Assembly: GCA_033439265.1 (NCBI GenBank)
Contig: JAVTVX010000013.1
Location: forward strand, 126,501 to 190,500
Length of the DNA stretch: 64,000 nucleotides
Source: Dillenia suffruticosa
Taxonomy: Eukaryota > Streptophyta > Magnoliopsida > Dilleniales > Dilleniaceae
Direction: 5' to 3'
The first letter of the stretch is position 1, and the number at the start of each line of letters is the position of its first letter. Below are positions 20,510-52,697 of the stretch, in pieces. The position numbers were made by a program, and so were the translations under genes. A model generated the notes under the pieces. The model was given only the letters and a program-made list of their open reading frames with translations. It searched no databases and had not been told where the DNA came from.

Positions 20510-21371
20510 GATTTGAATGGCAGTGACGATTTGCAGAAGGTGTTGAAGATGCAAGAACTCACGGCTAAAACTCGGGTGATGATAGAAGATGGTGACGAGA
20601 TGGGAGAGGATTGATGAAATTGAACCATAGAAGAAGTGAAAAACCTAGTAAATCCAACAAAAGCAACCCATAGTGGGCTGAAGATGAATACGGAGATGAA
20701 ATTTAAAGGGCAACCGCTCAAGAAAGAGTAGGAAAGAAAATTAACAGCAATGAAAGAAAGAAAAACAAACAGATTGTAAAATTAAACGTCGTGAGAGAAA
20801 ATTTTAACGGCGGTAGAGATGTATTTCTCCTTCCGTTCACCCCCTTCCTATAGGATTGTAACTCCTTGGGGCTTCGATCTAATCATCCGCATTGCTTGAT
20901 TGTTCAATCTGATCATCACCAATCGCATGATTGTAAAGGAATGATGAAATTTTGTTTCATATTTTTGGTTATTCAACTAGTTTTAAACTGAAGGCTTGGA
21001 GTTGAATAGTATCGATTTCAGCAGCCGCATGAGATATATCCACATCCTTCAACTGGGCTTTGAGGCCTTGAACTTCAACTTGATTATCTCTTAGTGGTGG
21101 TGGTGGGTGGTGGTCGGACAAAATTTTATCCGAGAAGATAGGTGGACTGGCCAGAAATTATAGGTTAAACATTGTTTTAGCGGCAGAGCTTCATCAGAAA
21201 AAGAGAGAGAGAATAGAATTCGGAATTAGATTTGATTTTTCTCAAAAAGAGGGGGACAATGAGAGTGCAGAGAAAGAACTCAAATATTTTTTAAAAATAA
21301 TTAATTTAAAAATTAAAAGGTAAAATAAATAATTTTTTTATTATATTCACATGCCACAAATATAACTGTAA
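20510..21371. other. Right flank of the Copia insertion
   Basis: Starts with a short open plus-strand frame (20510-20613) reading DLNGSDDLQKVLKMQELTA and then KTRVMIEDGDEMGED before a stop. I do not recognise it. The rest has no protein-like frame; a GGT-rich patch lies at 21093-21117 and GA-rich DNA at 21198-21215. Confidence 0.4.
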
Positions 21372-21659
21372 CAAGATATGTACGGATCTAGACAAAAAAA
21401 AATTTTAAATGATTTCCGACGGAATATAATTCCTTTTGTGATTCTCATTTATTGTGGGTTGAACTCGTGATAAAGTATGTCGTGAGTTAAACTCGCGGCA
21501 TTGGGTATATATGTCACGGGGACATGGGTATGTCACATCTTGAAAACGCGACATGTCCCAACTCCCCTCTCTCTCCCTCCTGCCCCGTGGCCCTCTCCTC
21601 CCTACGGCCCTGTGATTCTCTCTCCCTCCCACTCCCTCCCCCTCCCCCTCCCCCCGTGG

Positions 21660-22498
21660 CAGAACTTTGTATGAATCTAACCTAAAAAATAAAAAAATTT
21701 AAAACAATCTAGGCGAAAAATTATTTCCGTTTGTAACCCCATATATCGTTTAAACCACGACATATTATATTGCGTCTTGAACCCGCGACATAGTCCATGT
21801 CGTAGGGGGTGGGAGAGAGAGGAGTGCCACGGGGGAGAGAGAGAGAGTGCCGAGGGGGGAGAAGAGAGAAAGGAGTGCCGTGGAGAGGAGAGAGAGGGGA
21901 GAATGCTGTGGGGGGAGGAGAGAGAGAGGGGAGTGCCGTGGGGGGAGGGAGAGAGGAGTGCCGTGGGGGGAGTGTCGCGGGAGCGAGATGAGAGAGGAGT
22001 CTGCGGGGGGGAGAGAGAAAAAGAGAAAGGGGAGGAGTGCAAGGGGGAATGTCGCGTCTGCCGCAGGAGCGAGAGCGAGAGAGAGAGGAGTCCGCAGGGG
22101 AGAGAGAGAAAGAGGAGAGGAGTGTGGGGGGAATGTCACGTCTTCATCTCTCTCCCCCGCAGACTCCTCTCTCTCTCCCGCGACACTCCTCCCGCGACAC
22201 TTCTCTCTCCCTCCCCCGCGGCACTCCTCTCTCTCTTCTCCCCTCGCGACACTTCTCCCTCTCTCCCCCCGCGACACTCCCCTCTCTCTCTCTCTTGCGA
22301 CACTCCTCTCTGCCCACCACGACATGGACTATGTCGCAGATTCAAGATGCGACATGGACTATGTCATGAGTTGAACCCGCGACATGGACTATGTCATGAG
22401 TTGAACCCGCAACATATAAAGGTTATAAACGAAAATAATTTTCTGTGTAGATTATTTTATTTTTTCTATTTTTTAGTTTAGATTCGTATAAAACTCTC
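21660..22498. mobile_element. Inner nested inverted-repeat element of the same family
   Basis: The left end (ACTTTGTATGAATCTAACC, then AATTATTTCCGTTTGTAACC) recurs inverted at the right end (TTTTATACGAATCTAAAC and AATTATTTTCGTTTATAACC on the minus strand). Inside, the left arm (21790-22130) is G/A-rich on the plus strand with units like GGAGTGCCGTGGGGGGAG. The right arm (22140-22320) is C/T-rich with units like CGCGACACTCCTCTCTC, so the whole can fold back on itself. Terminal sequence is alignable with the outer element's, so one family member probably inserted into another. I see no clean target-site duplication. Confidence 0.7.
22319..22415 (+). repeat. 30-bp tandem repeat with internal palindrome
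   Basis: Just over three units of 30 bp starting at 22319, 22349 and 22379, each beginning GCGACATGGACTATGTC. The core CGACATGGACTATGTCG is a near-perfect palindrome. Units two and three are identical. Similar but diverged units occur near both ends of the outer and inner elements. Confidence 0.85.
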
Positions 22499-22860
22499 CA
22501 CGGCACTCTTCTCTCTCCCTCCCGCGACACTCGTCTCTCTCTCTCTCCCTCTCCCTCCCCCGTGGCCTTGCGGCACTCGTCTCTCTCTCTCTCCCTCCCT
22601 CTCCCTCCCCCTGTGGCTCTGCAGCACTCATCTCTCTCTCTCTCTCCCTCTCCTCCCCCTATGGCTCTGCAGCACTCATCTCTCTCTCTCTCTCCCTCTC
22701 CCTCTCTCCCTCTCCCTCCCCCCGGGGCACCACGACACTCCTCTCTCTCTATCTCCCTCTCCCTCCCCTTCCCCCTCCCTGAGGCCCCACGACACTCCTC
22801 TCTCTCTCTCTTTCCCCCATGGCACTCCTCTCCCTCTTTCTCTTCTCTCTCCCCCCACGG
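22499..22860 (+). repeat. C/T-rich minisatellite array
   Basis: Several imperfect units of roughly 35-60 bp on a pattern of GTGGCTCTGCAGCACTC followed by (CT)n and CCCTCTCCCTCCCC. The plus strand is almost pure pyrimidine over about 360 bp. It forms part of the right arm of the outer inverted-repeat element. Open frames on both strands (Ser/Pro/Leu-rich, or Arg/Glu/Gly-rich in the reverse) are composition artefacts. Confidence 0.85.
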
Positions 22861-23082
22861 GGGGAGAGAAAAGGCCGCAGGGCGAGGGAAGAGAAAGAAA
22901 TGAGTGGGGATATGTCGCATTTTCAAGACGCAACATATCCCATGTCAACCATATCACGAGTTGAAGACGCGATACAATTTGTCATGGGTTTAACTTACAA
23001 TAAATGGGGGTCACAAAAGGAATTATTTTCCTTCGAAAGTAATTTAAAAATTTTTTTTTGGGTCTATATCTGTACATGTCTC

Positions 23083-23567
23083 TAACTTTAATGACCCTAA
23101 ATGGAAGGATTAAATTTATATTCTTTTCATAACTGAGGGGAGATTTTTGTATTTTTAAAAAATTTAAGGGTATTTTGTATTTAATCTTAAGTTTATGGAT
23201 ACTTTTTACTTTTTCCAATTAACAAATAAAAATCCATAAATAATAATAATAGATAAATAAATAAATAAATAATTACAATAATAATATTGAGAACCTTTTA
23301 TGTTTTAATTGCTTTTAAAATAAAACCCTTGAGGGGAGATAGAGAGAGAGAGAGGGAGTGAGAGTTGGGAATTTAAATGCGTGGTGATTTGGAAGAAAGG
23401 TATAGAGTGGTCGGAGAGAAAAGATCAGACAGCAGTGTCTTGTGTTTGTATTGTATTCCCCAACTTCAACTGGGGTTTTTTTTTTTCTTAATAATTTTAT
23501 TTAGAGATATAGAGAGGGGGAACGCGAAACAAATTAGGGTTTGGTTTCCTCAAGAGTTCAGTAGAAA
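23083..23567. other. Upstream and leader region of nCBP
   Basis: AT-rich DNA with an AAT/AAAT-type microsatellite at about 23236-23292, then a (GA)n tract at 23337-23362 and a T-run near 23477. The part just before the ATG at 23568 should include promoter and 5' leader. No separate gene is visible. Confidence 0.5.
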
Positions 23568-26500
23568 ATGGAGGTTGTAACAGAGAAGATGGAGACTGAT
23601 AACAAGATGGCTTCCAATACTCAGCCACTCTTAGATCCATCTTCCGATAAAGATGCCGAAGATCGTGAACGTCAGGCTCGCGAGCTCAAAGCTGGTGTGC
23701 ACCCTCTCAAGGTCTCTCTCTTTCTCTCTCTCCCGATCTTTCCTATGTTGATGATGATATCTTCCGATGCTTCATTTTGTTTCATTTCGGCGTAAAATTA
23801 TTAGATGGGTTAGGATCGTTATTTAGGGTTCTTGCACATTACTGTAATTGCTTGCCTTGGTTTGTTTTGAAAATTTTAAGGATTAATTTTGGGCAAATTT
23901 ATTTCTCTCTTGCAAAAAAAGAAAAAAAAGCTCTCCTAAACTTCATAGTGTTTTAGGGTATTACAAAACACAACTGAATGCAGATACTAGAGGTTTTAAC
24001 CACACCGTAGGATACATTTGTTTCATGGATAATCATTTTCCTGTAAAGAACACATATATGGATAGGCCTAGGTATCGAATGATGAGAAGGTGATTTATTA
24101 ATGTGAAAATACAAATAAGGTCCATTCGCCCACTAGAAATAGACAGAGAAACAACTTATGGATCAATTTTGTGGAAGTCATTTTGATGAGATTTCTTTTA
24201 GTTATCTTTATTGTCTTGAAAATCACACACAGAAGTCTCTTCTGTGAAACAAGTAGATCCTATCTACCCAAGCAGTTTGGCAGAGCAGCAAATTGTCAAG
24301 CCATGTGTAAATTACCATTCCAACTCTCCCATGGTTCTAGCTGATTGCATTTTGAGGCTTAAACTAATTGTAAAGCAAGTTAAAGAGAATTTAAAACTTG
24401 ATACCTTGTTCATTTCTAGTTCTGAGCACTGATTTCTTGGATGAAGGTATTAGTTAACTCATGTTCTGAATCAAGAATCAAGTTGACTTTTGCTTCTGAA
24501 GTGGTGAGCAAAATATCTATGTCTCTTGAGTTTTCTGGTAACATGTTAAGAAAAAATTTCATTCACACTGTTCACAGATATTTTTCTTTTCAAGCATCTC
24601 TAAACTAAATTGCTTCAACTCATGAATTTAAATCCTTCTTTTTGCTTCTTACTTAGTGAAAAGAAAAAAAAATCATTAACATTTATAACTCAAGCTGGAA
24701 AATTCTCAAGTACGTCAAAGGAAAATTATTCAAAAATTGTCTCCAAGTTGTGCTTAAATGTGTACAATGCCACAATCCCATTACCAACCAGCTATCTGTT
24801 GTTAACAACATTTTGCACAGCCTTAATACATCTTTGAAATTTGAGATAATATGGAACGGAAATCTTAATTCTAGTGTTGAATGCAAATATTTTCTTTGGG
24901 CCCTGGAGGGGGGGGTCAAGAAGAAGCAATGAAGCAACGAAGCAACGAAGCAACGAAATGCATTTAAGTGCTTACAACCTAAAGAAACAAAGTGTCTACA
25001 AAGGAGGCAACCTTCCCATGTTAATTCAACTTTGCCATGCTGTCATCTTTTGAAAATTGAGTCTTCACTTGTAATGTGCATGTCACATTTTTTCTTCTGT
25101 AAGTAGCTATTAGTTTTTGTGCTGCTCATCTAACCCGAAATGTATTATCAGCACAAGTTTGTGTTCTGGTATACCCGTCGAACACCAGGAGTTAGAACAC
25201 AAACGTCATACGAAGACAACATTAAGAAAATCGTGGAATTTAGTACGGTAAGACTTTCTATAATCATTAAACAGTCACACTTCCTGAATAAATGCCAATT
25301 CTCTCAATAATAGTTGTGGTGCTGATTTTTAAGTTAGGATTTCTTTTGTAGGTTGAAGGATTTTGGGTATGTTATTGTCATTTGGCTCGTGCTCCATCTT
25401 TGCCTAGTCCAACTGATTTGCACCTTTTCAAAGAGGGGATACGTCCACTTTGGGAGGTAGATGCTTTTACATTTGAAGTTGCATCTACTTTTGCTTGTTA
25501 TTACTTATTTATATATTAAGCTTTTTTAGATGTGCGCAAAACTTATAGCGTGCTGAAATTGTGCTTGTGATAGGGTTGGGAGTGTGTATGGGTTGTTAAA
25601 GGATGACACCCACTTTAAGGAAGTTTGCAATCAGGCGCTGGATAATTTGAATATCATACTAATGCTTTTTTTCTACTACGTGTATTCTCTAATTAGGATT
25701 CTGCTAATCGCAATGGTGGAAAATGGATAATACGATTCAAAAAGGCTATCTCAGGTCGCTTTTGGGAGGATCTGGTAAGGGAAGCTAAAACAATTTTTTC
25801 TTGTTTGTATCATCTGCATATGCTTTTGTGGTGCTTGAAGACATTATTCATGCTTCCTGCTCCAATTTTAGTGGTATCACTAAGGGCAGATAAATTTGAG
25901 AAAACTTGTTCTAGTGACATAATCTGAGATGCTTTGACAACAGCACTTTTTCTCGCCTAAAGCAACACGTGCTGGTCTAAAAAGACTAAAGATTGTCTAG
26001 AAGATTTGAATTGGTTTGCCGGTGAAAGAGAATGGATGTTTTGATATAACTAACTATCGGGGACTTGTTTCGTGATCTTTGGTATGAGGATTGATATTTC
26101 TGCATTCCCAAGTGGACACTACTTCTAAAGAGGATGCTGTTTATTTGAAGTTCCTTCTTCTACCTTAACATTATGCTTGGAATTAATGAAAAATAAATTC
26201 AGTTTCTTTTGAAATAAATTGAATTGTGGAATTGTGGAGATTATTTGCAAATGAAATCTTGTACTTCGAACCAAAAAGTAGAAATGCCAAACTCAATTGA
26301 ATTCCTTTGCTTGAAATAACATGCGAATTCAATCTGGGTTCAATTCTGATAATCACTATTCACTGAATTATTCTTTACTCTTCATTTAAAAATATATAAC
26401 ATGAAAAATTATTGCAACCAAGTGAAAACAAGAAAAAGAGGAGAAAATCTGACAAAACCCAAATATGTAAACATCTAAACAAAGTCAATAAATCCCAAGA

Positions 26501-50889: not shown

Positions 50890-52697
50890 TATTTGGAGCA
50901 TAATAGGAAAAGCAAATCTTCGGTGGTTTGGAAAGGAATTTGTGCTAGTAGAGAGTGCCTAAGACAGGGTTTGACTTGGAGAATTGGCAATGGAAATTCT
51001 GTTAGCTTCTTGTTTGATCCTTGGATTGGGAATGATGCTTTGGTGCATGATGCGATTATCCCTCAGGTGGACTGCGCCGTGGCACCTAAAGTCAATCATT
51101 GTTGGGATGAGGAGGGTAGGTGGAAGGTTGAAGAGTTGAGCGCCTTGCTTCCCAGATCCAAAGTGGAGGAGGTAAGGGCTCTGCCCATTCCCAGGACTAC
51201 GCTTGACTCTCTGGTTTGGAAGGAGAGAGTGGATGGGGAGTTTTCTGTGGCTTCGGCTTATTGGATCCAGAAGAACCGGGGGGCTCAGCAGCTGCCAGGC
51301 AATGATTGGAGTTGGATTTAGAGGTCCAGAAATCTTGAGAGGGTCAAACTCTTCCTGTGGTTGGCAGTTAAGGACAAAGTATTAACTAAATCAGCACTTA
51401 AAAGGAGGAGAGTAGTGAGTGATGATGTCTGTGTGCTCTATAGGATGAAGGAGGAGTCTCTTGAGCATGTCTTGAGTGACTGCCCGCATGCTTCCAGTAT
51501 TTGGGATAAAATGGTGCACAAAATAGAATCTGCAGAGAGCTTTTGGAATGATATGTGAGAGGTGTGGCTCAAGAAGGGTGTGACAAGGAAATACCAGATT
51601 AGCTTTGAGGAAGAAGCAGTTAATGAAGGGGTAGGGTTGGCAGCTAAGGACAAAGCATTAACTAAATCAGCACTTAAAAGGAGGAGAGTAGTGAGTGATG
51701 ATGTCTGTGTGCTCTGTAGGATGGAGAAGGAGTCTCTTGAGCATGTCTTGAGTGGCTGCCTGCATGCTTCCAATATTTGGGTTAAAATGGTGCACAAAAT
51801 AGAATCTGCAGAGAGCTTTTGGAATGATATGGGAAAGGTGTGGCTCAAGAAGGGTGTGACAAGGAAATAACAGATTAGCTTCGAGGAAGAAGCAGTTAAT
51901 GAAGGGGCAGGGTTTGCGCTGAGAGTATGGGCCGTATGGAAGTCTAGGTGCAGTGGCATCTTCCAGCAGAAGCTTGAGCGGCCTCTTCAGGTTGTGAGAA
52001 GAACGCTTGAGTTGATCAAAGTCATCTCTAATAGAACTCATAGTGAAACAGACGAGGAGGAGGAGTTTCTGATTGCGTGGTCTAAGCTTGCAGAAGGCAA
52101 AACCAAGTTGAACGTGGATGGGGGAGCTAATATTTCGGGTGAGCTGGCTAGTGCAGGAGGGCTTTTTAGGGATTGCAGAGGAGAATGACTGTATGGTTTT
52201 TGGGCTAATGTGGGGTCTGTATGGTTTTTGGGCTAACGTGGGGTTTGCAGGAAGAGACCTCGCTGAATTATGGGCGCTGAGGGAGGGCTTAAGAATTGCC
52301 AAGGATCAAGAGCTTCAGGATCCAGAGGTCGAGTGTGACTCCCTAAACATAACATCTGGAGAAGTGGGAGTTAACCATTCTGCACGTTCCGAAAATATGC
52401 CATATCTATAGAGAAGCTAACAGGTGTGCGGACATGGTTGTGGAACTTGGCAAGAACTCCAAACCTGGTCTGGTTGAAGATCGCAGGCCTCCGCCGGAAG
52501 TGATTCCCCTGCTGCTGTCTGATGCGCTGGGAGTTGCTTGGTCTAGAAGGAGAAAGAAGGTCATGGTGCCTCCAGCAGCTCATTTGGAGCAAGTTGAGTC
52601 TTTTTGGTTCTAGGCTCTCGTTTCGCTGTTGCGGTCGTTTTGTTCCTTTCTGTTCATGTCTTTGTTTCCTACTATTCCTGTCCCAAAAAAAAAAAAA
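50890..52697 (+). mobile_element. 5'-truncated L1-type LINE, 3' end with RNase H domain
   Basis: Frames read as the C-terminal part of a plant L1-type ORF2. The zinc-binding reverse-transcriptase-associated domain (zf-RVT) is at about 50900-51560 (LTWRIGNGNSVSFLFDPWIG, FSVASAYWIQ, LKRRRVVSDDVCVL, EESLEHVLSDCPHA). An RNase H domain is at about 52080-52360 (TKLNVDGGANISGELASAGG, ELWALREGLRIAKD). The copy ends in a poly(A) tail at 52684-52697 after TTCCTGTCCC. Endonuclease and most of the reverse transcriptase are missing. Stops and two internal tandem duplications (51361-51912 and 52191-52246) show it is dead. No target-site duplication was found. Confidence 0.9.
51361..51912 (+). repeat. 276-bp tandem duplication within the LINE
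   Basis: TTGGCAGTTAAGGACAAAG at 51361 recurs as TTGGCAGCTAAGGACAAAG at 51637, and the whole 276-bp unit repeats to 51912 with a few percent difference. The unit covers the zf-RVT histidine/cysteine segment. A length of 276 is 92 codons, so the duplication itself keeps frame. Confidence 0.9.

Follow-up and report, generated by a model that had tools for sequence, protein, structure and literature searches.

Probable nesting of two related non-coding Mutator-like elements that carry GA/CT minisatellites in Dillenia suffruticosa

A 1.7-kb stretch of the Dillenia suffruticosa genome contains inverted repeats within inverted repeats, and between them long arrays that are purine-rich on one strand and pyrimidine-rich on the other. 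What kind of element has this architecture, and where do its arrays come from? The stretch lies in a 64-kb window (C13:126501-190500; coordinates without a contig are positions in this window) of an assembly of 596 Mb in 37 contigs. The window has a GC content of 37.5%, and the Pfam families present in it are of plant type, among them PPR, AP2 and GDA1_CD39. We consider it very probable that the outer and inner structures are old non-coding Mutator-like elements (MULEs) of two related families, here called A and B, that a B element landed in the array of an A element, that both were moved in trans, and that the arrays are their cargo.

Downstream of this structure lies an eIF4E-type gene (23568–25459, ATG at 23568), in which two later exon stretches match the IF4E Pfam family, one above and one just below the cut-off. 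The gene starts 477 bp downstream of the end of the outer element's right duplication, and the nested elements therefore sit in its upstream region; we take it to be possibly nCBP/4EHP. Elsewhere in the window, a 276-bp unit is present in two tandem copies with 95% identity (51359–51914) and adjoins an open reading frame (ORF) without a Pfam match, which we presume to resemble a LINE tail.

MULEs typically create target duplications of 9 bp, within a range of 8–11 bp, and have terminal inverted repeats (TIRs) of about 100 bp or more. The ends of the outer element form an ungapped 102-nt inverted repeat (21394–21495 and 22957–23058) that is 78% complementary, and a gapped alignment extends almost to the tips, in agreement with the inverted ends of about 110 bp described in an earlier reading of this DNA (the sequence-only reading). 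The 8-of-9 target duplication described there is likewise present, as TAACTGTAA and TAACTTTAA directly outside the ends; when the flanks were shuffled, a match of this quality arose in 0.04–0.9% of trials, depending on the shift allowed. The four ORFs running through the window elements contained no Pfam family, consistent with the lack of coding capacity reported before. Within the outer element, two further segments (21654–22016 and 22147–22503) form an inverted repeat (69% over 401 columns). Similarity also links the inner left end to the outer right end (73% over 113 columns), and both findings bear out the claim that a second element with related inverted ends lies inside the first. Together, the two elements comprise the following features.

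21363..21371, no strand: left target-site duplication of the outer element, TAACTGTAA; 8/9 with 23083..23091
21372..21476, plus strand: left TIR of the outer element (family A), with an AT-rich tip; from the inverted alignment; A profile 106.6 bits, B profile 69.1 bits
21477..21556, plus strand: outer left subterminal dyads of the ATGTCGCG-n9-CGCGACAT type; from dyad pattern matches
21557..21655, plus strand: left piece of the outer CT array, 13% purine; from the purine fraction
21653..21661, no strand: possible left duplication of the inner element, CCCGTGGCA, weak; 6/9, with a 6/8 core
21662..21755, plus strand: left TIR of the inner element (family B); B profile 119.8 bits, A profile 41.4 bits
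21756..21803, plus strand: inner left subterminal dyad motifs; from dyad pattern matches
21804..22135, plus strand: inner GA minisatellite arm, 83% purine, units of about 23–30 bp
22141..22311, plus strand: inner CT minisatellite arm, 17% purine, the inverted partner of the GA arm
22318..22415, plus strand: inner right subterminal dyads, 3.2 copies of a 30-bp unit
22416..22496, minus strand: right TIR of the inner element; B profile 99.3 bits, A profile 56.4 bits
22497..22505, no strand: possible right duplication of the inner element, TCCACGGCA, weak; read from the sequence
22498..22857, plus strand: right piece of the outer CT array, 16% purine, units of about 30, 48 and 57 bp
22858..22910, plus strand: short outer GA array adjoining the right end, 87% purine
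22911..22975, plus strand: outer right subterminal dyads; from dyad pattern matches
22976..23082, minus strand: right TIR of the outer element (family A); A profile 96.1 bits, B profile 78.7 bits
23083..23091, no strand: right target-site duplication of the outer element, TAACTTTAA; 8/9 with 21363..21371

All four subterminal regions contain a 25-bp dyad, ATGTCGCG-n9-CGCGACAT, which the sequence-only reading did not mention. A degenerate form of the pattern, with up to three mismatches, produced 15 strand-matches in the window, all inside the element, and none in 100 window shuffles. The half-site CGCGACAT, within one mismatch on either strand, occurs 26 times in the window, 21 of them inside the 1.7-kb element, and the half-sites alternate mostly at 13 and 17 bp, which together make a 30-bp ruler. 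Exact-pattern scans of viral and genome contigs returned 5, 1 and 1 loci, where the likeness extended little beyond the seed word, as by chance.

Searches of the same genome revealed that neither element is alone. The outer left end found at least 41 matches (61 candidates, 40 scored) and the inner left end at least 40 (126 candidates, 40 scored). With a second A end as the query there were at least 43 matches (252 candidates, 40 scored), some of them internal pieces, and with a second B end at least 56 (571 candidates, 40 scored), the weaker of which are internal dyad pieces. By profile, the ends form two families, A with the tip GAGACATGTACGGATCTAGAC and B with the tip GAGCTTTGTACGGATTTAACC, and when the ends were placed in a tree, the closest end of a different element belonged to the same family for 72 of 74 A ends and 45 of 52 B ends. 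The copies have diverged, the best TIR identity between A or B copies being 91% among the matches listed. Elsewhere in the 64-kb window, neither profile matched anything beyond the two elements described here, at E values up to 1.

For the analysis of target duplications, seven of 60 loci (L008–L067) were set aside, namely six second ends and a neighbouring A element (L035), leaving 53. An inverted partner end was present in 45 of these; the other eight had no partner within the locus, including the outer window element, which is cut by the locus size. The best 9-mer duplication lying up to 4 bases from the ends matched at 9/9 positions in 12 of the 45, at 8/9 in 20, at 7/9 in 9, at 6/9 in 2 (one of them the inner window element), at 5/9 in 1 and at 4/9 in 1. 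Duplications of 8–9/9 were thus present in 32 of 45, as compared with 1.1% of 1,980 cross-pairings (8/9 in 1.1%, 9/9 in none). In a larger set of 61 unique two-ended elements, taken without a separate null, 42 had duplications of 8–9/9 (A, 27/37; B, 15/24), the 37 A rows including the outer window element (L008) mispaired with the inner right end at 4/9. This set was drawn from 90 loci (L008–L097) by removing 13 in which the partner end was missing from the locus and 16 that held second ends or repeats of elements already included. The 62-element analyses below cover 60 genome elements, with L008 removed, and the two window elements. The length of the duplications and the long TIRs of the outer element both agree with the definition of MULEs. 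The sequence-only reading named as refuting it a single copy in the genome, or copies lacking shared termini and target duplications; the genome holds many copies, with shared termini and 9-bp duplications, and their array lengths vary widely.

The arrays in the window are strand-asymmetric, with purine fractions from left to right of 0.13, 0.83, 0.17, 0.16 and 0.87 and pure runs of up to 45 bp; the asymmetry was described correctly in the earlier reading, but at these fractions its wording 'almost pure' is overstated. Arrays make up a median of 75% of the interior in A (60–86%) and 83% in B (47–92%; n = 62 in total), whereas the array share of random 900-bp pieces of the rest of the window is 24% in the median, 46% at the 95th percentile and at most 63%. 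The least array-like element falls within this background range, and the bulk of the 62 lie well above it. Arrays in both orientations, the smaller being at least one quarter of the larger, are present in 15 of 25 B elements (including the inner one) and in 2 of 37 A elements, so B is for the most part a foldback family, unlike A. The window pair has the same division: the inner arms (337 bp of purine and 185 bp of pyrimidine array) are inverted partners in a foldback layout, whereas the outer element's own interior, with 465 bp of pyrimidine and just 63 bp of purine array on the plus strand, rules out a foldback of its own arms. The earlier suggestion that the whole folds back through its inverted arrays consequently applies to the inner element and not to the outer element's own interior. 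Its proposal of one Mutator-like foldback family survives as to the Mutator-like character, given the 9-bp duplications and the coding MULE relative described below, but there are two end families and the foldback form belongs mainly to B.

What the arrays are made of bears on their origin. They are GC-rich (60–71%), and 51 of the 62 elements contain the core GGAGT(C, GC or GT)CG, the three plain forms of which are absent from the rest of the window. In the arrays of the 60 genome elements, the window pair not being included, the half-dyad word TGTCGCGG occurs 68 times on the purine strand with up to one mismatch, as compared with 5.4 times in shuffles (reverse complement, 11 versus 2.9). For TGCCGCGG, which overlaps TGTCGCGG and was chosen after the frequent words had been seen, the counts are 164 versus 10.1 (reverse, 37 versus 6.7). 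This enrichment suggests, without proving, that the array unit began as a half-dyad together with a GA microsatellite, and such words may also have arisen by convergence on CG-containing cores. Alternatively, an ancestor could have captured a GA/CT-rich stretch of host DNA, such as a gene leader, in the manner of Pack-MULEs, and the captured stretch could later have become tandem. MULEs do acquire host DNA, and the GC-richness of the arrays would suit the tendency of Pack-MULEs in rice and maize to favour GC-rich sequence, both as described in PMC3310237. The CG-containing core, however, resembles the element's own half-dyad, and we regard capture as rather unlikely.

The nesting itself rests on the ends. 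The inner ends favour the B profile (120 and 99 bits, versus 41 and 56 for A) and the outer ends favour the A profile (107 and 96 bits, versus 69 and 79 for B), although three of these four ends lean to their family because they were in the training sets, both outer ends in that of A and the inner left end in that of B; the inner right end was not. On these scores, the inner structure is identified by its sequence as a B element inside an A element. Its target duplication is unconvincing. The best 9-mer pair near the predicted ends, among pairs within about 20 bp of them, matches at only 6/9, so a duplication is not established for this element. Higher-scoring pairs also exist, at 7/9 (or 8/10), but they consist of low-complexity, CT-rich words that are offset from where the ends are predicted.

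A weak inner duplication would also be expected if the whole were one MULE with several internal terminal repeats and no nested insertion. MULEs with extra TIRs exist, and PMC3310237, as far as it describes them, weighs a nested insertion whose inner duplication was lost as one origin of such TIRs. The A element L024 also has an extra internal A-type end. Against a single element, the inner and outer ends differ in the profile that they favour, B elements of equal size and layout occur elsewhere on their own and have good duplications, and a second copy of the combined 1.7-kb structure was not found among the loci examined, which were part of the candidates. We judge a single multi-TIR element improbable and retain the reading of a B element inside an A element. 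The extra end in L024 is partial (1793–1887 of the oriented locus), and that locus is possibly a multi-TIR element or a tandem duplication.

Whether the arrays travel with the elements can be read from their content. The more distant their TIRs, the fewer words two arrays share (Mantel r = −0.52 for all 62 elements, with 0 of 999 permutations as extreme; −0.20 within A, 2/999; −0.69 within B, 0/999), and sharing with locally shuffled arrays is 0.038, as compared with means of 0.09–0.14 between real arrays. This relationship fits arrays that were carried along with the elements and not made afresh at each site. Taken together, the shared ends, the 9-bp duplications and the array content that follows the ends indicate that A and B moved as units. 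For the inner window array, word sharing is higher with A arrays (0.162) than with the remaining B arrays (0.096), for which exchange of array with the host element is a possible cause.

If the arrays had instead arisen independently in each copy, the elements would have inserted into GA/CT microsatellites that then expanded, and MULEs that target microsatellites are documented (PMC5907723 and PMC4486113, as described there). Pure purine or pyrimidine runs of at least 15 bp flank the present elements in just 11 of 60 flank sets, a mild excess over the 9.3% of 1,000 window controls and unlike the insertion into microsatellites that characterizes the SaTar and MuTAnT elements. Moreover, the terminal repeats enclose the arrays, 32 of 45 copies have 9-bp duplications immediately beyond these repeats, and the array words follow TIR relatedness, which makes an independent origin very unlikely. 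An origin as satellite DNA or as a product of segmental duplication, for which the highly repetitive interior might speak, is hardly conceivable for copies that are dispersed over many contigs with precise shared ends and target duplications. We therefore continue with A and B as mobile elements that carry their arrays.

Since the elements are non-coding, their movement would depend on a transposase encoded elsewhere. An 8,028-bp (8.0-kb) MULE at C27:734921-742948 (within C27:733600-746600, which was read) is flanked by an exact 9-bp duplication, GGAAATTTA, and its ends are inverted at 76% over 291 columns. It contains an 820-aa ORF with the Pfam domains DBD_Tnp_Mut, MULE and SWIM, and a 482-aa ORF with a plant mobile domain (PMD). 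The ends of this element, here called C, score 76–78 bits with the B profile and 34–40 bits with the A profile, and in the tree the C ends have as their nearest neighbours, apart from each other, one A end (L075) and two B ends (L067 and L085). The array content of C, at 21%, is at the background level. Its dyad, TTTGTCGCGGGTTGAACCCGCGACAAA, is perfect, and two dyads lie 87 and 115 bp from the left end, with a mirrored arrangement at the right. Further inside than these TTTGTCGCGGG-type dyads, C has a second, CTTTCCGCGT-TTGAAAACGCGGAAAG-like type of dyad, in three copies per end at steps of about 29–39 bp (L098:1500-1595 and the right end).

Dyads are similarly placed in the A and B elements examined. 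Allowing up to five mismatches in the 18 fixed positions, we found them up to 260 bp from the end at every one of the 62 left ends and at 60 of the 62 right ends. The 62 elements contain 283 in total, in which the inner element's dyads count twice because the sequence used for the outer element included the inner one, as compared with 1.95 in base-shuffled elements. The dyads begin about 75 bp inside the ends and peak at about 70–90, 100–120 and 130–140 bp from the end, with repetition about every 30 bp. Starting about 70–90 bp inside the A, B and C ends, they appear to be the best candidates for transposase-binding sites.

The C left end (179 bp) is 100% identical at 12 places among 40 scored (738 candidates), 30 of 40 scored C ends read into a scored MULE domain 3.3–3.6 kb away on the same strand, and at least 15 copies have an unbroken 870-aa transposase frame at 99–100% identity (55 of 2,363 candidates scored). 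With identical ends and unbroken transposase frames, the C family looks recently active. By contrast, the A and B copies have diverged, and the present-day C family need not be the one that moved them.

A search with the Pfam MULE domain (PF10551) returned 737 genome candidates, of which 150 were scored, all above the cut-off. Among these 150, no scored MULE domain was reached at 2.5–6 kb from any of 66 A ends, and no coding copy with B ends was found. Two of 65 B ends were placed rightly, 4.5 kb from a MULE domain, and were rejected as ends of autonomous copies, as the loci show separate, self-contained short B elements. A second transposase subfamily is 75–76% identical to that of the C27 element and has three members among the matches listed (C20:10785820-10788294, C27:9588582-9591059 and C12:18281650-18284127), two of them with unbroken frames; in stretches of 1.7–1.8 kb upstream of two members there was no A or B profile match, C-end similarity or dyad. 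The expectation of a partner transposase with the same ends is therefore borne out in part: a coding MULE relative exists, with similar ends and the same dyads, but its ends have diverged and it is a candidate mobilizer only. From these similarities, we infer that a C-type relative moves A and B.

Several elements or ends of A, B and C lie tens to hundreds of bases from another of the group, in L009/L012, L019/L035, L039, L048, L053 and L067, at C24:6426601-6426924 and at L098:200-1322. In L019 about 25 bp separate two A elements, and a short B element adjoins the C27 MULE at a distance of about 60 bp. This clustering looks denser than the copy number would give.

On the basis of these observations, we propose the following course of events. 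A Mutator-type transposase supplied by relatives such as the 8.0-kb C27 element would bind the subterminal dyads, cut at the ends of A and B, and insert the elements in trans; in one such event, a B copy would have inserted into the array of an A copy. The GA/CT arrays would be passive cargo that grows by slippage and unequal exchange, with a unit that probably derives from a half-dyad (TGTCGCGG/TGCCGCGG) beside a GA microsatellite, and in B an array would have been duplicated in inverted orientation, giving the foldback arms. A more far-reaching proposal, which we advance tentatively and with some doubt, is that the dyad is the transposase-binding site and that the minisatellites grew from its half-site. 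The lineage would then make minisatellites, in B in foldback form, out of its own binding-site DNA, and the interior would amount to an extended array of weak sites.

The elements reveal a Mutator-type lineage of a plant whose non-autonomous copies, as far as sampled, are filled for the most part with a strand-asymmetric minisatellite that moves along with them. Because the minisatellite travels in this way, transposition could seed GA/CT-rich, structure-prone minisatellites throughout the genome. The dyads, which occupy corresponding positions in a coding relative with numerous identical ends, offer a concrete candidate for a MULE transposase-binding site.

In the open-access literature searched, we found no description of MULEs with a GA/CT minisatellite interior, and several known systems share individual features with A and B. 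Galileo of Drosophila is foldback-like, and footprinting located its first binding site at about 70 bp from the end and further sites in the tandem repeats, as reported in PMC3688188. It belongs to the P superfamily, however, so its likeness to the dyad placement in A, B and C is one of layout only. MULEs with multiple long TIRs (PMC3310237) also have extra terminal repeats within the element; these are mostly tandem duplicated TIRs in the description given there, whereas here the inner and outer ends differ in family and the inner set is a complete element. SaTar elements of guayule, rice, sorghum and citrus are small non-autonomous MULEs that often lie adjacent to one another, as A and B do, but according to PMC5907723 microsatellites flank the elements and no nesting was observed in the guayule clusters, whereas A and B have internal minisatellites and one case of nesting. 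MuTAnT of Medicago, in the account of PMC4486113, comprises short non-autonomous MULEs with modular foldback terminal repeats and with 9-nt duplications at its few non-microsatellite sites; it sits in TA microsatellites, whereas A and B have their repeats inside.

Two further systems, likened here by description alone, combine mobile elements with tandem repeats outside plants: a miniature transposon (MITE) of the bacterium Porphyromonas gingivalis contains a minisatellite (as described in PMC4596501), and the Tetris foldback element of an animal, Drosophila virilis, is a source of satellite DNA (as described in PMC4079207). Among plants, FARE of Arabidopsis provides a precedent for foldback elements with a MULE-domain transposase (cited in PMC3169594 and PMC4486113). 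The Tm1 Mutator/Foldback elements of root-knot nematodes (PMC3169594) are animal elements of the Phantom subclass, with units of about 14 bp and, as far as described there, without the 25-bp dyad or a GA/CT minisatellite interior. Like A and B, however, they have 9-bp duplications, composite terminal repeats made of variable-number tandem units and a purine-rich motif, and, in that description, their non-autonomous groups stand beside a group with a putative Mutator-type transposase.
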